A program made the translations under genes and the position numbers. A DNA stretch of 20,767 nucleotides from a virus. This document shows positions 4,526 to 15,892 of this stretch, in pieces. Each line of letters opens with the position of its first letter. The stretch's first letter is position 1. A model generated the notes under the pieces. It was given only the letters and a program-made list of their open reading frames with translations, was not told the DNA's origin and made no database searches. The DNA lies in IMG/VR virus record IMGVR_UViG_3300046002_001511, positions 1 to 20,767 of that record; one strand, written 5' to 3'.

Positions 4526-7500
4526 GCAGGCAGATGCTTCTCTGATCTGGTATTAACAGCGACTCTGTTTTTGCCGACCGACTTGCGCCGTGCTTTCTGG
4601 ATTCTGTCCATCATGGCGTACAGCTTCCGCGCACCAGCGTCTGTCGATCCGTTGCCAAGTTCAGAGACGATACGAGCTGGAATCACAAACTCACCATCAG
4701 CAAGACGAGCAGGCTGCCGGTTGCCAATAACAGCAGGGATATCATCAGATACTCCATCTCCCGGTCCTTTCAGTAGTCTGCCACCATCAGAGTAGCCGCC
4801 AAGATCTGCTATACCGCCAGCAGCCATCTTGACGCTTTCTCCCGTCTCTCTTGCCCGCGCCAAGAACTTCTCGCGCTCGCCAGCATCAATCCGGTTGTCT
4901 CTACCAAACTCATTGATCCAGTAATCAAAGCCGCCCATGTCTGGCGCACGTCCAAGATTATCTTGGTACAGATCGTAAAGTTGCTCACGGGCGTAGTTGT
5001 TGGACTGCTTGGTTACTGGGTCGGTTCCAAACAAGAATGGTGCTTTTGCGTTCAGTTGTGCGCTTTCTTCTTGAGTGATACGACTGCCCATTCTGTTGGG
5101 GTCATACAGACCGGCGTTATAACCAGCATTGCCCATGTCTACTTCTTTTCGTAGACCGGCGGCTATCTGCTCTCTGAGAGGATCAATACCACCTGCTTTA
5201 CCTATCTGGCTCATCCAGTATTCACGGCCAGGAATATCTGTCTCGCGACCACCGATCTCTCTGTACAGGCTTTCCAGTGCATTTCTGTCAGCAAGCTCGG
5301 TCTGAGCATTCGACATAAACAGCTCACGCTCACCAGCGTCAATGATGTTGTCCTTGCCGATGGTATTCAAGTAATAATCAAATCCTGCCGCATCAGGCAG
5401 ACGTCCGAGCTTGGTCAAATACAGCTCGGTCAAATCTGCTCGTGCTTTGTCATTTGGTCCAGTCTGGAACTGTCTAATCAGCGCATTCTCTTCGGGCTTA
5501 TTCTCGAAGTAGTTGTACGCATACGCGCCCGGTGCTGTGCTGATTTCTCTGCCAGTGCCTGTTCCGGCTGCTGCGCCAGCTCCGGCACCAGCGGCGGCAC
5601 CAGTACCGGTACCAGTACCGGCCCCAACTCCTGCACCAGCACCTACACCAGCTCCAGCTCCTGCGCCACCAGTTGTTGCGGGAGTGGTGGCTGGCAAGCT
5701 TGGCAATCCCAGCTTTGGCACAACAGGACCTGGGTAGCCATACTGCGCCGGGTTGTACGGAACCCCGCCTTCGATCATGGCTCGGCCAGACTCGTCGTAC
5801 ACGATCTTCGGCACAAGCGGCTTGGCTAGGTTCGTGAAATACTCAGGCGAGTATTGCAACGTTTTCTCTAGCGTAGATGGCGCCATTTGAGCTTGCCGCG
5901 AGTAGAACTCCAAGCCAGGCAAATCTACCTGTCGACCAAGTACACGCTCATAGGCGTCTGCTACCTGACTAGGCGTTGCAGCCGAGGTCTGTAGGCTTCT
6001 AGTTGGCGCTTTGCTACCAAGAGCAAATGTCGTTTTTGCAAATGGCGACTCTACGGCTTCAGTATTCGTTGAGGACCCCTTCCCTCGATAGTCATATCCC
6101 CCGCCAACATATATAGCACCAGCTGGAATGTTGACGGTGCCGGACGATCCTTGGCTTGCTGCTTGCGTTGCTGCTTGTGTTGCAGCTTGGTTGGTTGCTG
6201 CTTGGTTGGTTGTTGTTGTGGTGGTAGTACCGCCCCTTGGAACACCAGTTGCTAAAAATTCTGCTCTTTCTGGATTGTTCGCATAAGACAGATCTGCGCG
6301 AAGTTGAGCTGCTGAAATGTTTGGATTTGAATAATGCTGCAATCCAGCGGGATCTGGCGCACGTCCAAGGAACTCTCGGTACGCAGCTTCAATATCACCG
6401 CCCGCAGCAAACTTCTGCTCTCCGGTGTACGGATCTACGTTTTCGTAGTTCATCGGGCGAATGAAGTCTTGAGAGATTGGCCGCTCTGATGGTGTGGCGT
6501 ATCCACGTGCTTTTTGATTAGCCATCGGGTAGCCGGTGTTGGCACCGATAGCGTTCATGCGGGACATCTGCTCTACCGTGCCGCCATCTGCTAACGACAT
6601 CAGCCCACCGCCTGCTGCGTACACCTCGCCCGTCGGCGCAAACCGCGCGTTCGGATAGTAGTTACGCTCGCTAGTGCCAGCTACGCCAATAGGATATGGA
6701 TCGTACTCGTATCTCAATCTTTCAAGCGGCTCGCCCTTTTTCTGTTCAGGCATCTTGCGCTGCCCCTGCGACGCGTTGTACAGAGATGTCGCCAACGCAG
6801 CAGACTCATACGGATTGTCTTTAACAAACTGCATGAGCTTCTTGGGATCGGAGGTTATTTCTCCCAATCCTCGACCCATTGCTGACAACTGACCGCTGAC
6901 AGTATTTGGCGCTGTTGCTGCTTGAGCTAGGCCTGCGTTTGTCACACCGCGCACTAAATCACCCTGCATGCCGCCTTGGATGGCAGATTTCAACGCTGTC
7001 TCTTGCGCCACTTTTGCAGCGTTTCCTGCCATACCTCCCAAGGCTGGATTTGTTGCGGCCTGAAGAGCAGCAGGAGAGTTAAGCGCTGTATAGGCTAGCG
7101 TTGGCGCAGCGCCCATAGGCGTTGCAACAGTGGCACCTGCTGCTTGTTGAGCGGCCTGATTGGCAGCGGCCGTACTAGCACCTTTGGTCGCTGCGGCAGC
7201 CGCTACGTCATCAGCAAGGCCTGCTGCCGCACCACCAACACCTGCTAGCGCACCACCTATGCCAGCACCACCAAACGCACCAAGCCCCGCCATGATGCCT
7301 TTGCCAAGACTGCCTGTTGCCAGCGTGCTAACAGCACCGGTTAATAGCGCGGCGTTAACCGCAGACATTCCAGCAGCCTTCAGGCCGATACCAGCAATCG
7401 TGGGAAGAATCGCCGCAAGGAAGAATGCCTCCGGCAGACCAGTCTCAGGATTGATTGTCAGACTGCCACCGTGTGCCATGGCCAAGGCCTGCAAGCCCTT

Positions 7501-10410: not shown

Positions 10411-10884
10411 TTATTTCACCGCTTGTCTGGCTGCTTCGTATTGGGCGTAGCACTGTTTGAGGGCGACTCTGACTTCGTCGGCTTCTCCAGCGAACCGGAC
10501 AAGAAATTCGCCATCCTCTCGGTAAAGCTCTTTTCCGGTACAGGCACTGGGTCCAACACCGGCGGCACTGGGCACGGCACTTGTATTGGCGGCGGGGCGA
10601 CTTTGGCGGTCGCGCAGGCTGTTAGCAAGAGCGGTATTCCTAGCAGTAATATCCCGTATCTCACGATCCTTCTCCTGTCGCATCCTATCTGCACCCATCT
10701 GAAGATTCTGCTGAACTTCCACAGACTCTTCCATCGCCTTGGCGTACTGAGCGTACTGCGCAGCCTTCTCTTTATCCCAAGCCTGCTGTACTTCTGCCTT
10801 GCCATCTTGACTACCTTGATAATACCCTCCAGCCGCCGCTACGCCAACAGCCACTACCGCCGCGAGGATCATCCAAGGATTCAC
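10411..10884 (-). CDS. Rz: Rz-like inner-membrane spanin
   Basis: A 157-residue protein with one N-terminal membrane segment (about 4-22, ILAAVVAVGVAAAGGYY) and no signal cleavage site. It is followed by a charged helical periplasmic region (about 30-95) with coiled-coil character. This is the i-spanin plan: anchored in the inner membrane, it pairs with the Rz1 lipoprotein across the periplasm to fuse inner and outer membranes at the last step of lysis. The start is GTG (10884-10882), overlapping the lysozyme stop (GTGA). An ATG four codons later would leave a shorter cytoplasmic tail. The nested Rz1 frame inside it, and the lysozyme and holin-like genes before it, make the call strong despite weak sequence conservation in this class. 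Confidence 0.85.
   Translation of the reverse strand: MNPWMILAAVVAVGVAAAGGYYQGSQDGKAEVQQAWDKEKAAQYAQYAKAMEESVEVQQNLQMGADRMRQEKDREIRDITARNTALANSLRDRQSRPAANTSAVPSAAGVGPSACTGKELYREDGEFLVRFAGEADEVRVALKQCYAQYEAARQAVK
10416..10664 (-). CDS. Rz1: Rz1-like outer-membrane spanin lipoprotein, nested in Rz
   Basis: The gene lies wholly within Rz in another reading frame. From GTG 10664 the product is 82 residues and begins MRYGILLLGIPLLLTAC, a signal peptide with lipobox L14-T15-A16-C17. The mature 66 residues are Pro-rich near the start (APPPIQVPCPVPPVLDP), as in other Rz1 proteins, with Ser/Glu/Lys at the end. The frame is open upstream to 10805, but those residues would place a basic stretch before the lipobox. 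GTG has AGGAG seven bases upstream, so I choose it. The product should be sorted to the inner leaflet of the outer membrane and bind Rz. This nested arrangement is known from phage lambda. Confidence 0.88.
   Translation of the reverse strand: MRYGILLLGIPLLLTACATAKVAPPPIQVPCPVPPVLDPVPVPEKSFTERMANFLSGSLEKPTKSESPSNSATPNTKQPDKR
10672..10676 (-). promoter_or_regulatory. Ribosome binding site of Rz1 (decides GTG start)
   Basis: On the minus strand AGGAG (within AGGAGAAGG) stands seven bases before GTG 10664-10662, inside the Rz coding sequence. No comparable site precedes the upstream start candidates of this frame. Confidence 0.7.
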
Positions 10885-11366
10885 TTTGGCTCCGTAAAGT
10901 AGAGGGCAATCTCATCGTTCCGGCGCTTTACCAAGCCCGGCAGAACCTTGCCGCCACCCTTGGTGAACTTCAAGAACTCCTGCCTTACCCCGTCGAAGTC
11001 GCCACGGTTGTGCTTCTGCCGTAGGGTCGATCTCTGCAACGTGCCTAGCCCAACATTGAATGCAAAGCTGACCAACGCACCCATGCGATTTTCGTTAAGA
11101 TTGTCAGGGCAGTAGCGAAGAACACCAGCGATAAAACGCTGTAGGTCTTTCTCAAGGATTGAATCCACTTCGTCTTTGCTGAATACACGGAAATCCTCTA
11201 TCTTCAGTGCGAATCTATCTCGCTGATCAACCGGCATCTTGCCCTGCTCGGGGTAGAGAACATGCCCCACTCCGATAGTCCACAACTTCGCCGGACACTT
11301 GTACGGCTTATATCTCACACCTTCATGGTGCTTGATCATGGCAATGGTGGCTGCCGGGATCTTCAT
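10881..11366 (-). CDS. GH24 lysozyme (endolysin)
   Basis: This 161-residue protein is of T4-lysozyme type and cuts the MurNAc-GlcNAc bond of peptidoglycan. The active-site pattern is visible: E15-x8-C24-x5-T30, in EGVRYKPYKCPAKLWTIGVGH. GH24 enzymes usually have Asp at the middle position; Cys occurs in a known subgroup. Further typical pieces are the ALVSFAFNVGLG helix (about 97-108) and KRRNDEIALYF near the C-terminus. There is no signal peptide or SAR anchor, so release to the periplasm should depend on a holin, and a holin-like gene lies just upstream. The start shares ATGA with that gene, and the end overlaps the Rz GTG (GTGA), forming a lysis cassette. Confidence 0.9.
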   Translation of the reverse strand: MKIPAATIAMIKHHEGVRYKPYKCPAKLWTIGVGHVLYPEQGKMPVDQRDRFALKIEDFRVFSKDEVDSILEKDLQRFIAGVLRYCPDNLNENRMGALVSFAFNVGLGTLQRSTLRQKHNRGDFDGVRQEFLKFTKGGGKVLPGLVKRRNDEIALYFTEPK

Positions 11367-11875
11367 TTGCCAGCCTTGCTGTTACCGCGAGAACCAAACC
11401 ACATGGCGATGATCGTGCCAAGGAGCGCCATCTCGTCAGCGTCAAACACAATCTCCATGATCTGGATCAGCTCACCGATTGAAGTCACCTTGTCGCCGTG
11501 CATGAAGATCCACAGCATGGTCAGTAGGTTGATTAGGACTAGCTCAAACACGAAGATGAACGTGACAAATGGCCGGGTGGCCGCTGTCATGTCTTTGACC
11601 CACTGAGAAGAGGATTCCAACAGCTTCTCTTGGTTGTTGTAGATCATGCCCATCTGAGCCATGTACTGCTGGTGATCCTGCTCGTCGTTCTCGCGGACTT
11701 CTTCCGTCTTGTCTGCCGGTGAGTAGCCGCGTTCAGTCAAAGCCAACTGCTGCCGCATCTGCATGTGCATGATGTCTAGCTCGTGCTTCTTGTCTGCACG
11801 GTCTTGCAGGATGTCAAAGAGTCTTGGGAACAGAGCGACGATGTAGCCGCCGATGGTAGAGATGAGAGTCAGCAT
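11363..11875 (-). CDS. Holin-like membrane protein
   Basis: A 170-residue membrane protein with two clear transmembrane segments (about 102-125, FVTFIFVFELVLINLLTMLW, and 147-161, ALLGTIIAMWFG). A weaker hydrophobic stretch lies at the N-terminus (3-20). Between them is a long charged helical loop. The C-terminus, GSRGNSKAGK, is short and basic. The layout, with WVKDMTAATRPFVT entering the first strong membrane segment, resembles the three-TM holin family described from gene transfer agents and many phages. A pore-forming role in releasing the neighbouring lysozyme is inferred from its position directly before that gene (ATGA overlap). Starting at ATG 11875, it follows the 101-residue gene with 2 nt between stop and start. 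Confidence 0.65.
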   Translation of the reverse strand: MLTLISTIGGYIVALFPRLFDILQDRADKKHELDIMHMQMRQQLALTERGYSPADKTEEVRENDEQDHQQYMAQMGMIYNNQEKLLESSSQWVKDMTAATRPFVTFIFVFELVLINLLTMLWIFMHGDKVTSIGELIQIMEIVFDADEMALLGTIIAMWFGSRGNSKAGK

Positions 11876-11877
11876 GA

Positions 11878-12183
11878 TTACCTTCCGTAAAGTCGTTCTT
11901 CCAATATCTCGCGCCGCAAGTCTTTCATCTTCCTAACTTCGTGAACGGCAGCCTGTGTTACTACGTGCATGTCCCAAAGCATAAAACCGACAATCGGCAT
12001 AACGATGAAAAAAGTAAGCAACACTGCCAGCACTACGACAATCAATGACCAAGGGACGTTTTCATCATCGCGCTTCTTGTCGTCAGCCACATTAGACCCA
12101 CTGCCCATATAACTACGAACACCACTGCCGAGACCCACGCCACCTTTGCTTTGACTTCCGCTATTTTTTTTCTGCGTCGCCAT
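11878..12183 (-). CDS. Small single-TM protein overlapping the upstream gene
   Basis: The 101-residue protein has a polar Ser/Gly/Lys-rich N-terminal arm (1-43), one transmembrane segment (about 45-70, LIVVVLAVLLTFFIVMPIVG) and a charged helical tail rich in Arg/Glu (75-101). I do not recognise the family. It could be a holin, antiholin or lysis regulator, given its place before the holin-like gene, but nothing proves that. Its first 142 bases overlap the end of the upstream gene in another frame. The ATG at 12183 has no good ribosome site; an internal ATG (residue 26) has none either. Translation may therefore depend on the upstream gene by coupling, or by -1 frameshifting on an A8 run (12164-12171). 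Confidence 0.65.
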   Translation of the reverse strand: MATQKKNSGSQSKGGVGLGSGVRSYMGSGSNVADDKKRDDENVPWSLIVVVLAVLLTFFIVMPIVGFMLWDMHVVTQAAVHEVRKMKDLRREILEERLYGR

Positions 12184-12728
12184 CTTGCAATCTGTATCAG
12201 CTTAAGTTCCTCGGCATGAGCTGCTTCTTGCTCGGCAACGATGGTCTGCCACATCTCTTCAAACTTACTCCAGAGCGACCCCAACTCAGGCGGCGCTCGG
12301 TACACCATCGTCTCGCGTATCTCAACCAACATTGCGTCTAGTCTCGTCGTTATGATGATGCGCCGTAATGCCCGTCTACCAATACTTTCCTCACCCTTGT
12401 AGACCTTGCTTCCTGCTACCTGCTCTGCCAACAGCGCTTTACTCAACGCGTCATAACTGTCCATCAACACACCCAACTGGTCACCAATCTGGGTGTAGAC
12501 ATCATTCGGGTCAGCCTTGGCTATCTCCTGCACACGCTGGACTTCTGCGTGGTACTGCTGTTTCTGCACCGGCGTTGGATCGACGATCTTGTTGTACTGC
12601 TCTTTCAGATCATCCAGTACTTCCTTGACTTCCCCTGCCGCGCCTTTGATTTCCTTGTAAAGCTCACACCCCTTCTTGACCGCTGCAACAGCAGCATTCG
12701 CCGCAGCAAGAAGGGTTAGCGGGTCAAT
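12042..12728 (-). CDS. Tail-anchored membrane protein, apparent ATT start (228 aa)
   Basis: The frame is open from a stop at 12731 down to 12042. Conventional starts would begin only at GTG 12569, which has no ribosome site. At ATT 12728-12726, GGAGG lies five bases upstream and the coding would begin (M)DPLTLLAAANAAVAAVKKGC, a beginning I recall from related uncultured-phage proteins (MDP-..-KKGC-LYK). The product has a hydrophobic Ala-rich start (4-17), a charged helical body, a conserved-looking GEESIGRRALRRI segment (about 112-124), RRRKK at 184-188 and a C-terminal membrane segment (about 196-215). Function is unknown; it may be a membrane partner of the lysis genes. It starts 11 nt after the oxygenase gene and overlaps the 101-residue gene by 142 bases. 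Confidence 0.7.
   Translation of the reverse strand: MDPLTLLAAANAAVAAVKKGCELYKEIKGAAGEVKEVLDDLKEQYNKIVDPTPVQKQQYHAEVQRVQEIAKADPNDVYTQIGDQLGVLMDSYDALSKALLAEQVAGSKVYKGEESIGRRALRRIIITTRLDAMLVEIRETMVYRAPPELGSLWSKFEEMWQTIVAEQEAAHAEELKLIQIARWRRRKKIAEVKAKVAWVSAVVFVVIWAVGLMWLTTRSAMMKTSLGH
12164..12171 (-). other. A8 run, possible -1 frameshift or slippage site
   Basis: On the minus strand the upstream gene reads AGA-AAA-AAA-ATA here. A_AAA_AAA is a canonical slippery heptamer in that frame. A -1 shift would enter the frame of the 101-residue protein and give a fusion of about 283 residues, replacing one C-terminal membrane segment with another. I see no obvious downstream stem-loop by eye. Confidence 0.4.
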
Positions 12729-12733
12729 TTACG

Positions 12734-12738
12734 CCTCC
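12734..12738 (-). promoter_or_regulatory. Ribosome binding site supporting an ATT start
   Basis: Minus-strand GGAGG is followed by CGTAA and then ATT. The in-frame TAA just before ATT rules out any start further upstream, so this strong site has no other long gene to serve. The alternative ATG-GAG-GCG-TAA is only three codons. Confidence 0.65.
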
Positions 12739-12739
12739 A

Positions 12740-13348
12740 TCAATTTTCACCTAATTGCAACCCAGTTAAATTTTCATCAACACCAATGTGACCTTTGAGG
12801 AAGGTGTTGAAAGATATACTCACACGGGTCTTGTCTCCTACGGCCGTCTGGACCATATGCTCCAAATGTGATGGGAATAAAATTAAATCACCCACACCAA
12901 CCTCGAACCACCAACTTTCTGAGTTCCAGTGATTCCACGTGGCTGGTTGGATTTTGATTCGTTCGTAACCACTTTTGTAAAAAAATATTTTGTCTAATTG
13001 TCTGTTGGCCTGCGAATAGAACACGCCTGATATAAAACTGTTTGGATGCGCATGTCTGTGATGATACTGCCCAGGATCTGTGTAATTCGCCCAAGATTGC
13101 GTCACATATAGCGCCACCTCGCCCTTGGGGTTGTGTACCGTTTTGAAGTAATCCACCACAGCATCTTCAATAAACTCACGAATGTCTGTCAGCTCTTTGT
13201 GCCGCAAAATTTGTCGGTCAGAACTGGTGACATTGCCTTGATTTGGGTACTTCTCTTGGCCAAGAATAAAATTCAGTTCTTTCTCGGTCAGCTCGCGTCC
13301 CAAGCGAGAAAATCCTATCGGCAACGGAAATAAATTTTGTATGTTCAT
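12740..13348 (-). CDS. 2OG-Fe(II) oxygenase-like protein
   Basis: The 202-residue protein resembles the phage-borne 2-oxoglutarate/Fe(II) dioxygenase group (Pfam 2OG-FeII_Oxy_5 type). The core is visible: WANYTDPGQYHHRHAHPNSF (about 86-105) with His 99 and 101 as candidate iron ligands. It continues with ISGVFYSQA (106-114), LFPSHLEHMVQ (157-167) with distal His 161/164, and TRVSISFN (174-181) with Arg 175 placed to bind 2OG. Such enzymes hydroxylate proteins, nucleotides or small molecules; the substrate is unknown. Common in aquatic phages, they are usually counted as auxiliary metabolic genes. It follows the APS-kinase-like gene by 4 nt and shares the AT-rich composition of the cassette. 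Confidence 0.8.
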   Translation of the reverse strand: MNIQNLFPLPIGFSRLGRELTEKELNFILGQEKYPNQGNVTSSDRQILRHKELTDIREFIEDAVVDYFKTVHNPKGEVALYVTQSWANYTDPGQYHHRHAHPNSFISGVFYSQANRQLDKIFFYKSGYERIKIQPATWNHWNSESWWFEVGVGDLILFPSHLEHMVQTAVGDKTRVSISFNTFLKGHIGVDENLTGLQLGEN

Positions 13349-13352
13349 AAAA

Positions 13353-13790
13353 TTATGCCACTTTTAATTTATGGAAATTGTTAATTATTTCTGCAATTTT
13401 TTCAGCATGCCATGCAGGGTAGTCAAATTGATTAGTAACTCGATAATTATATTTATCCGGCGGCACAAACAATTTGTTGGTGTCTTCGTATTTGCTTTCT
13501 TTGATGCGATCTACCCAAACCAAAAATTCTGGGTTGAAAATTTCACGAGCCTCTGGTGTAGGGCAAACAAAATCGGCAATAACGTGAGAACCATGACGGG
13601 AAGCTATGTTGCACAATACACCCATCCTTCTTGCTTGTTCTAGTCGATCATCAACAGTAAAGCCTAGATCTTTGTTAATTTCTCGCCTAATTTCATCAGC
13701 ATTAAAATGCACCGCGTGCAAACACAGCGCAAGCTCTGTGGCCAATGTTGTTTTGCCAGAACCAGGAAGCCCCATGATTAATATTTTCAT
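13353..13790 (-). CDS. APS-kinase-like P-loop kinase
   Basis: The 145-residue protein has a Walker A motif, GLPGSGKTT (7-15), FNADEIR (29-35) where CysC has DGDNVR, and NKDLGFTVDDRLEQARRMG (39-57), very like the NKDLGFS-DR-E--RR block of adenylylsulfate kinase. These would bind ATP and APS to make PAPS. ADFVCPTPEARE (72-83) matches the region after strand 4. It is shorter than typical CysC (about 200 residues) and the C-terminus differs, so the substrate is not certain. A TTG at 13808 would extend it, but ATG 13790 is preferred: one base after the upstream TAG, with GGTGGAA before it. With a sulfotransferase two genes upstream, PAPS supply is a reasonable inference. Confidence 0.75.
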   Translation of the reverse strand: MKILIMGLPGSGKTTLATELALCLHAVHFNADEIRREINKDLGFTVDDRLEQARRMGVLCNIASRHGSHVIADFVCPTPEAREIFNPEFLVWVDRIKESKYEDTNKLFVPPDKYNYRVTNQFDYPAWHAEKIAEIINNFHKLKVA

Positions 13791-13791
13791 G

Positions 13792-14166
13792 CTATTCCAC
13801 CGGCGCAATTGGAATCCAAGTCAACTTTTCTTCTGACCAAAGGTGTTTGTTTCCATCAGCAGGCTTTGGTACAGGAGCTTCCCATTGATAAAAAGTTGTA
13901 TTCAGTATCCAAGATGGAAATGGTTGCTTTGGTATAAATACATCTTTGTCAGGATCATACCTTCCACCAATTGTTGCGTAGTTGGCTCTGAACTTGTTGT
14001 TGTAACTCGTTTGCACCCAACGGGTATCCTGTCCAAAAATTTGTTGGCAAAATTGAACGCCAAGCTGTTCTGACTCCAAACCAAACTCATTAGTAATTTC
14101 TGTGTTTGAAACTACAATGACTTGCAAGACAGTATTGTTTTCATCTAGTTGAGCAAAATGTGCCAT
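13792..14166 (-). CDS. MAHFA-type conserved phage protein
   Basis: The 124-residue protein starts MAHFAQLDENNTVLQVIVV, a beginning I recall from a widespread family in marine cyanophages and other aquatic phages. It contains RANYATIGGRYDPDKDVFIP (about 60-79) and PSWILNTTFYQWEAPVP (about 84-100), both typical of that family, with Trp-rich beta structure. Function is not established. In those phages it is often found near tail-fibre and structural genes, so it may be a virion or tail accessory protein. Here it lies inside the accessory cassette, between sulfotransferase and kinase. It starts 12 nt after the sulfotransferase with GAGGAACGT upstream of the ATG, and ends one base before the kinase start. 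Confidence 0.75.
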   Translation of the reverse strand: MAHFAQLDENNTVLQVIVVSNTEITNEFGLESEQLGVQFCQQIFGQDTRWVQTSYNNKFRANYATIGGRYDPDKDVFIPKQPFPSWILNTTFYQWEAPVPKPADGNKHLWSEEKLTWIPIAPVE

Positions 14167-14178
14167 ACGTTCCTCGCA

Positions 14179-14991
14179 TCAAACTACTTCAGCATCAAGC
14201 TTCAAAGACCATTCGCCAAACACCTGCTCGCCATATACAAGCATGTTGATCTTCTCACAAGCTTCTAAAACATGGTCTGGCAACTCTACATCTACCTCAC
14301 GAGAAGCAATCTGTGGCCGGACGTCGTGCATACCCAACAACCCGTGAACAGAGTCATTCTCACAATTAAATTGTTCTATGTTGTCAATCTGATGATTGTA
14401 GGGTTGCAGCCCCAAAAAATCATAGATCAAATCCAAAACTTCCAATGGCTCGTCCACCAAATCTCTGTAGTCTATGTACAAAAATTTGTCGGAGGGAATA
14501 AATCTGGAATAAGCAATGGCCTCCGCTGCCTTATAAATTGGCTCGCTGTTTGGTCGCAACAAGTCAGAGTACAAATCACCACGCCAATTATTTTTTTTCC
14601 TCAAAGAAACTAACGATTTTACAATCTCTTCGGCAGGCCGAACCATGACAATGACTTTTTGATTTTTGTTAACGTACGTGTTCCACATGTCTAAATTTGT
14701 GGGATGAACCCAAGCCCTGCCTTTTTCTATGACGATTGGTTGATCAACGTGCTTGTAATATAAATAAGGCAATGACGATATAATTTCATGTTGCGTGTGT
14801 GTTTTGTTATTTGCCAACAAAGCAGTTGTTTGCTCACACGAACACTTCATATCCCACATAAGCTGACACAGCGCAGAAGCACCTTCTCCATAGATAGATG
14901 GGTTTTGCATCAACAACGAAATTAACAAAGTTGAACCTGTCCTTGGCAACCCGCTCAGTAGTACAAATTCTTTTCTTTGTTCGCTCTTCAT
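14179..14991 (-). CDS. PAPS-dependent sulfotransferase
   Basis: The 270-residue protein has the 5'-phosphosulfate loop LSGLPRTGSTLL (12-23) and the 3'-phosphate loop VIVMVRPAEEIVKSL (113-127) with Arg118 and Ser127. It also has YIDYRDLVDEPLEVLDLIYD (172-191) ending in FLGL, the usual closing segment of sulfotransferases. It would transfer sulfate from PAPS to an acceptor (sugar, protein or lipid) that I cannot name. The frame is open upstream to 15093, but that part overlaps the adhesin gene. ATG 14991 sits one base after the adhesin TGA, just before the P-loop, and is preferred. Composition is AT-rich compared with the structural genes. The kinase at 13353-13790 may supply its co-substrate. 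Confidence 0.88.
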   Translation of the reverse strand: MKSEQRKEFVLLSGLPRTGSTLLISLLMQNPSIYGEGASALCQLMWDMKCSCEQTTALLANNKTHTQHEIISSLPYLYYKHVDQPIVIEKGRAWVHPTNLDMWNTYVNKNQKVIVMVRPAEEIVKSLVSLRKKNNWRGDLYSDLLRPNSEPIYKAAEAIAYSRFIPSDKFLYIDYRDLVDEPLEVLDLIYDFLGLQPYNHQIDNIEQFNCENDSVHGLLGMHDVRPQIASREVDVELPDHVLEACEKINMLVYGEQVFGEWSLKLDAEVV

Positions 14992-14992
14992 G

Positions 14993-15892
14993 TCAGCCCC
15001 ATTTGATAGAGCCACTCGCGTTAAAAACGTAAGCTCTAAATCCTCCAGATTCCACCACTGTGGGCGATCCAGTTGTGGCTGTAGCAACAGCAAATGCGAT
15101 TGGATAACGAAGAATTACAATGCCAGACCCTCCCGCTGCTGGTCCAGTTCCAGGATTGTTTGGCGCAGCTATGGCAAAATACGAGCCTCCACCGCCCCCT
15201 CCTCTGTTTGCAACGCCTGCTGTGGCGCTAAATCTTGCGCCATTTCCGCCTCCACCTTGGCCACCTAAAATGGCGGTATCAGTACCACTTCCTCCGCCTC
15301 CGCCTCCGCCATACAAAGTATTAGATCCACTGTAATCGTTACTTATGCCATTACCGCCTTTGCCGCCAACGGTGCCTGAGCCATTAAAACCAACTTCATT
15401 TTTGCCGCCGCCACCACCACCTGTACCTAAATTTCCAGCCACGCCGCCGTTATTGCCTTCGCCAGCAGTGCCAACGCCAACCGGTGATCCATTTGTACCT
15501 CCCCCGCCAGATCCTCCTGTCCCGCCAGCACTTCCGCTTGGCGCGCCTCTGCCGCCGCCAATCGATGTGACAAGAGATCCAAAACTTGAATTAGAACCGT
15601 TTGCAGCAGCTGCACCACCGCCACCAACGGTTATTGTGTATGTTGTCCCCGCTGTTATAGACGTGTTTCCTACTCTTACGCCCCCTGCGCCACCGCCACC
15701 CCCGTAACGACTTCCGCCACCGCCGCCACCAGCCACAATTAAATAATCAACCGTAGTAGGAGGAACAAGAGGCCATTGAGAATTGCCAATATATTGGGTT
15801 GCTTGTGTTGCAATAAACACACCACTTGCCGAAGTTGTTGTGACGTTCGGCCCCGTTTGGCGAATTAATCCACCGGAGTATCTCAGGCTCAT
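14993..15892 (-). CDS. Glycine-rich tail adhesin
   Basis: The protein is 299 residues from ATG 15892. After a short N-terminal part, VDYLIVAGGGGGG (48-60) begins a Gly-rich domain to about residue 255. It contains repeated GGGGGxGG blocks and closes with GGSGIVILRYP. The C-terminal strand FRAYVFNASGSIKW completes a pattern frequent in phage receptor-binding proteins. Dense glycine runs suggest a polyglycine-II sandwich, as in the gp38-type adhesin of Salmonella phage S16, though this is inference. The TTG at 15910 is rejected: ATG 15892 overlaps the upstream TAA by one base (TAATG) and has GGAGGAG upstream. Its place after fibre-like genes fits a host-recognition tip. Confidence 0.78.
   Translation of the reverse strand: MSLRYSGGLIRQTGPNVTTTSASGVFIATQATQYIGNSQWPLVPPTTVDYLIVAGGGGGGSRYGGGGGAGGVRVGNTSITAGTTYTITVGGGGAAAANGSNSSFGSLVTSIGGGRGAPSGSAGGTGGSGGGGTNGSPVGVGTAGEGNNGGVAGNLGTGGGGGGKNEVGFNGSGTVGGKGGNGISNDYSGSNTLYGGGGGGGSGTDTAILGGQGGGGNGARFSATAGVANRGGGGGGSYFAIAAPNNPGTGPAAGGSGIVILRYPIAFAVATATTGSPTVVESGGFRAYVFNASGSIKWG
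15128..15730 (-). repeat. Poly-glycine repeat region, coding
   Basis: Residues 55-255 of the adhesin hold many runs of four to eight glycines separated by short Asn/Ser/Thr/aromatic loops. On the plus strand these appear as CCGCC/CCACC tracts, which produce long spurious Pro-rich frames there. The loops would be the variable, ligand-facing parts if the sandwich model holds. Confidence 0.7.

Follow-up and report, generated by a model that had tools for sequence, protein, structure and literature searches.

A conserved ATT start codon in a phage gene family suggests weak translation of the leading gene in an overlapping pair

The locus and its ATT start site

The window analyzed here is the whole 20,767-nucleotide stretch of the viral record IMGVR_UViG_3300046002_001511. 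Its minus strand carries a gene for a predicted membrane protein that lacks a conventional start codon, preceded by an oxygenase family gene and followed by a short overlapping gene, termed the partner, and by genes of lysis type (Table 1). Read in the direction of transcription, the start site runs ATG (12740-12738) GAG GCG TAA (12731-12729) ATT (12728-12726) GAC CCG CTA, and the perfect GGAGG five bases before an ATT that directly follows an in-frame TAA can be read in the window as the earlier note had described it. From this ATT the frame stays open for 228 codons, to a stop that ends at 12042. The one in-frame ATG upstream, at 12740, is closed by the TAA after three codons, and the first in-frame ATG, GTG or TTG downstream is the GTG at 12569 (codon 54), which would give a product of 175 amino acids. 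The GGAGG-N5-ATT motif was dropped as stand-alone evidence, as its two matches in the window against 0.34 expected (two or more in 4 of 100 shuffles) are not significant; the significance of the site derives from its conservation among relatives and not from the motif by itself.

Table 1. Features around the ATT start site in the window
Feature	Position	Strand	Remarks
2OG-Fe(II) oxygenase family gene	12740..13348	-	TGA ends at 12740; upstream gene differs between relatives
Three-codon minigene ATG GAG GCG TAA	12729..12740	-	Contains the Shine-Dalgarno sequence; ends directly before ATT
Shine-Dalgarno sequence GGAGG	12734..12738	-	5-nt spacer CGTAA before ATT
Start codon ATT (very probable)	12726..12728	-	Aligns with ATT/ATC/ATA/GTG in near relatives and ATG in distant relatives; conservation begins at this codon
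ATT-started gene, 228 codons; predicted all-helical protein with C-terminal transmembrane helix	12042..12728	-	dN/dS 0.08 in codons 2-53
Partner gene, 101 aa, one transmembrane helix	11878..12183	-	Begins inside the ATT-started gene; overlap of 142 nt, frame +2
170-aa hydrophobic protein (phrog_6637, unknown function)	11363..11875	-	Putative holin
Endolysin (Phage_lysozyme)	10881..11366	-	Family match
Rz-like spanin	10411..10884	-	Gene of lysis type

The minigene joins the oxygenase stop through its ATG in a TGATG overlap and perhaps feeds ribosomes to the ATT. Across the family, a similar ATGGAG or ATGGGG layout is found in 19 of 73 distinct contexts with ATT, ATC or ATA (ATH) at the start, and the minigene, hence optional, was dropped as an essential part of the site. 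Positions 12740-15093 of the window encode the oxygenase, a kinase-like protein and, judged by its motif only, a putative sulfotransferase. On the downstream side, the 170-amino acid protein is a possible holin, judged by its position and hydrophobic stretches, and several other loci also have lysozyme or holin-like genes downstream.

The 228-residue protein has a predicted C-terminal transmembrane helix at about residues 198-216. The AlphaFold2 model of residues 1-228 is all-helical (pLDDT 80, pTM 0.57) and consists of a three-helix bundle and a long C-terminal helix ending in the transmembrane segment, a superficially syntaxin-like arrangement. The best PDB matches to this model are three-helix bundles (GARP-SNARE complex, syntaxin) with Z of 11 or less; such values are ordinary among helical bundles, and a function based on this likeness was dropped. 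Significant matches to viral structures are phage proteins without names. Searches of Pfam, NCBIfam and PHROGs gave no significant match to the protein, the weak PHROGs matches being to families of unknown function, and no IF3 was found among the matches from these three collections. The earlier note had suggested that the protein may be a toxic membrane protein; the membrane part of that suggestion, though not the toxicity, is supported by the predicted C-terminal helix and by the adjoining lysis genes.

Conservation of the start position

The near-relative set comprised 80 IMG/VR loci in which most or all of the protein was matched from residue 1. The codon at the start position of these relatives is ATT in 55, ATC in 17, GTG in 7, ATA in 1 and ATG in none, so the comparison of this base in homologues that the earlier note had proposed came out in favor of ATT. 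Across 47 distinct contexts, pairwise DNA identity averages 0.26-0.28 in each 10-base block from -60 to -10, 0.62 at -10 to -1 and 0.84 directly after the start. This jump places the beginning of homology exactly at the Shine-Dalgarno (SD) sequence and the ATT, and the two stay attached to the gene whenever its upstream neighbor is swapped. Such exchange of the upstream gene has occurred repeatedly among these loci (L001-L080), in which its length and frame are very different, and the recombination edge lies close to -10. In these loci and in the window alike, the start is closely surrounded by stop codons of all three frames.

In the near subfamily, SD pairing energy ranges from -4.9 to -10.7 kcal/mol in 38 of 38 distinct ATT, ATC or ATA contexts, as computed with a generic anti-SD sequence that may differ from that of the host. 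None of these 38 contexts has an in-frame canonical start upstream of the ATH codon before a stop is reached; a few distant ATT members (the L095 group and L305) have TTG or GTG 19 codons upstream. Codons 2-53 show a dN/dS of 0.080 at a pS of 0.65, with synonymous sites saturated, which is comparable to the dN/dS of 0.057 in codons 54-180. The 52 codons after the ATT are thus under purifying selection, and no part of the family is more conserved than the MDPLTLL N-terminus. Canonical start codons are the rule for the neighboring genes of these loci. The partner is present in the 80 near relatives with its start aligned in 79, all 79 being ATG, and canonical starts are likewise found in 21 of 21 copies of the gene for the 170-amino acid protein and in 19 of 19 lysozyme genes.

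Another 80 loci, more distant, came from a profile scan, and the codon at this position is ATG in 59 of them. The start position is fixed by these independent canonical relatives, because their proteins also begin Met-Asp-Pro and have ATG there. With ATT, ATC or ATA in 73 of the 80 near relatives, ATG in distant ones and homology setting in from -10 to +1, sequence comparison makes ATT 12728 almost certainly the start codon of the 228-residue protein.

A sequencing or assembly error that conceals a true ATG or GTG was the main alternative in the earlier note. Nothing beyond the rarity of ATT starts speaks for it, and the same codon class recurs in 73 of 80 near-relative contigs and in further sets; since these contigs come from many metagenomes, an error in the window is excluded for practical purposes. 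Initiation at GTG 12569, with the preceding 53 residues left untranslated, has in its favor that this is the first ATG, GTG or TTG in frame. However, it is scarcely credible in view of the constraint on codons 2-53, it would forfeit the MDPLTLL N-terminus, and the homologues do not begin there, as the next in-frame canonical start varies among relatives (codons 34, 37, 54, 63, 66 and 79). Also very improbable is that the ATT is an internal isoleucine codon, with the protein arising through readthrough of the TAA or through a frameshift out of an upstream gene. All three isoleucine codons do occur at the site, and the upstream open reading frame is in frame in 22 of the 46 ATH contexts that have a long one. 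Yet upstream frames of all three kinds are found, the sequence before -10 is unrelated among relatives, the in-frame stretch before the ATT of the window is only a few codons long, and distant relatives carry ATG at codon 1. Moreover, codon 1 in the 73 distinct ATH contexts (ATT 69, ATC 4) departs from isoleucine usage at codons 2-175 of the same genes (ATC 296, ATT 257, ATA 170; p = 5e-22, without tree correction). A readthrough or frameshift product was rejected as well, there being no homologous in-frame coding upstream of the stop.

Exchange of start types and the overlapping partner

A tree of 133 family proteins was built without residue 1. Its two outer groups (34 and 17 rows) have ATG throughout, and the other 82 rows carry ATT in 49, GTG in 19, ATC in 11, ATA in 1 and ATG in 2. 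Three further scans again returned ATT and GTG in members near the ATT and GTG branches, and the 245 non-redundant family members divide into 103 with ATH, 74 with ATG and 68 with GTG. The near-cognate codon at the homologous start position is accompanied in ATH members by a strong, correctly spaced SD sequence, with GGAGG plus 5 nt or GGAG plus 6 nt before the start as the commonest layouts in the 73 distinct ATH contexts. Over distinct contexts and with the generic anti-SD sequence, ATH sites have a median SD energy of -6.8, GTG sites of -1.5 and ATG sites of -3.35; the share that reaches -4.5 or better is 95% for ATH, 18% for GTG and 40% for ATG. The difference in SD energy between ATH and GTG has a p of 3e-17 without tree correction.

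About 27 interchanges between ATH and GTG can be counted on the tree, at least 15 of them on supported branches (FastTree). Among 15 independent ATH/GTG pairs, the accompanying SD shift is compensating in 7.6 on average and opposite in 0.0 (median sign-test p 0.008). Compensating shifts at these exchanges are what selection for weak, non-zero initiation would give. Nine members (L084, L086, L087, L140, L147, L273, L307, L314 and L319) have CTT, CTA, TTA or GTT at the aligned start and a GTG one codon upstream in frame; their start has therefore shifted by one codon. A search for prophage relatives returned one distant match only, in a contig of a MAG.

The partner lies in the +2 frame in 130 of 130 distinct contexts and is 70-104 amino acids long, and the overlap spans about 43-154 nt across non-ATG members. 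Overlap with the partner is present in 97 of 98 ATH members and 65 of 65 GTG members, together 162 of 163 judgeable non-ATG members, and in 5 of 67 ATG members. The single non-ATG member without overlap, L024, has a shortened reading frame. The association between overlap and start codon falls mostly within one clade and is thus confounded by ancestry; it is a lead, not proof. In codons 181-228, which make up the overlap, pS is 0.33 and dN/dS 0.275, a lower synonymous rate such as double coding would predict. Five members (L115, L120, L207, L223 and L250) have both an ATG start and the overlap; their SD energy is -3.0 or weaker in four and -6.8 in L115. In L115 and L120, the partner is followed by a second protein beginning MIDPxTALAGIQSAISxVKK, like the family N-terminus, which may be a paralogue of the ATT-gene family.

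Probable weak initiation and its precedents

Taken together, the ATT is very likely the true start, compensated by a strong SD sequence, with weak initiation under selection that would limit a helical membrane protein relative to its partner. Selection for weak initiation at the start of this gene is in itself probable, and control of the ratio between its protein and the overlapping partner can be put forward tentatively. Mechanistically, the initiator tRNA would read ATT as fMet, and the strong, precisely spaced SD sequence would offset the poor codon pairing, leaving the gene translated, but weakly. The rate of initiation would be set by IF3, which discriminates against AUU, AUC and AUA. 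Where recombination swaps the site, the outcome is either a strong SD beside ATT, ATC or ATA or a GTG whose SD is weak or absent; ATG hardly ever results in this branch of the family. The purpose would be to keep a tail-anchored helical membrane protein below the small single-transmembrane partner that begins in its 3' end. The earlier claim that the ATT limits translation gains indirect support from the swap of ATT plus strong SD for GTG plus weak SD. As counterpoints to weak initiation, the ATT seems frozen beyond its need, because ATC and ATA should do equally well, and an ATG start combined with the overlap occurs in five members, one of which, L115, has a good SD sequence as well.

Ribosomes finishing the upstream gene would reinitiate at the ATT, and this probably contributes, because a long upstream open reading frame, where present, ends within 30 nt of the start in 46 of 46 ATH contexts. 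Carried further, termination-reinitiation could account for the codon on its own: the stop of the upstream gene would deliver the ribosomes, codon strength would hardly matter, and the ATT would be tolerated rather than selected. Besides the close upstream ends, a stop in frame within two codons of the start in 56 of 73 distinct ATH contexts and the abutment of ATG GAG GCG TAA on the ATT of the window are consistent with this account. However, tolerance predicts frequent ATG through drift or recombination, and ATG is found in 0 of 80 members of the near subfamily. Reinitiation also leaves open why ATH needs a strong SD sequence when equally coupled GTG does not, and as a full explanation it is rather unlikely.

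Elevated IF3 is reported to inhibit de novo initiation at non-canonical codons as well as SD-less reinitiation (PMC2268962), so both site types, ATH with an SD sequence and SD-less GTG, could respond to IF3, although this is speculation. A further idea, for which the odds are poor, is that the AUU, AUC or AUA start ties output of the lysis-adjacent membrane protein to the amount of free IF3 relative to 30S subunits, the phage thereby reading the translational state of its host. If so, the ratio of the two overlapping membrane proteins would be set in this way, and hence the timing of lysis or membrane takeover.

To our knowledge, the bacterial genes known to have a conserved non-AUG start number no more than a handful. 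In phage T4, an internal AUU start in gene 26 gives a shorter product; AUU is thus a phage start codon there too, although internal, whereas the gene described here has the ATT as its main start. A search of mostly open-access literature found no conserved ATT start in any other phage. In Escherichia coli, the AUU start of infC lowers initiation and underlies IF3 autoregulation, and in Streptomyces, an ATC start is likewise regulated through IF3 (PMC5472188); an AUU start is also indicated for pcnB by a title in the reference list of PMC13009471. The phage gene shares its AUU start with infC and pcnB. Unlike them, it is unrelated to IF3 or poly(A) polymerase, its codon alternates with SD-less GTG, and it overlaps a membrane-protein gene.

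A closer parallel in gene arrangement is Streptomyces sigR, in which a GTC start with an extensive conserved ribosome-binding site keeps SigR below its coupled partner RsrA (PMC5472188). As in sigR/rsrA, in which the partner is needed in excess, the phage gene combines a non-canonical start with a strong conserved ribosome-binding site, is the first of two paired genes and overlaps the second. However, the sigR codon is GTC and not ATT, the pair is a sigma factor and its antisigma factor, and the ratio and the IF3 effect were measured for sigR, whereas we infer them for the phage gene. In Staphylococcus aureus, ccpN (AUA) and cvfC1 (AUU) have conserved non-canonical starts with an extended SD sequence and reduced yield (PMC13009471). 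The rescue of a conserved non-canonical start by an extended SD sequence is common to these and the phage gene; ccpN and cvfC1 are chromosomal Gram-positive genes, and the passages of PMC13009471 on them report no swap with an SD-less GTG.

Judged by its sequence, the phage gene falls among the few whose output is limited by a non-canonical start. The feature that seems new is a whole phage family that swaps repeatedly from one kind of weak start to the other, in association with an overlapping pair. Retention of ATT, or of SD-less GTG, in well over 100 further phage contigs suggests that the first gene of this pair is held weakly translated. These more than 100 natural sites amount to a replicated natural experiment, in which two routes to a weak start have been swapped many times and ATG is almost excluded from the branch that overlaps a second gene. 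Additionally, the family exposes a systematic annotation error, in that gene finders restricted to ATG, GTG and TTG clip the most conserved part of the protein. An example of start misannotation in the family is L082 (MW202462.1), positions 4998-5690, where the deposited coding sequence begins at an ATG (locus position 5025), eight codons inside the conserved N-terminus, although a GTG in the same frame lies ahead of the aligned start, at 4998.
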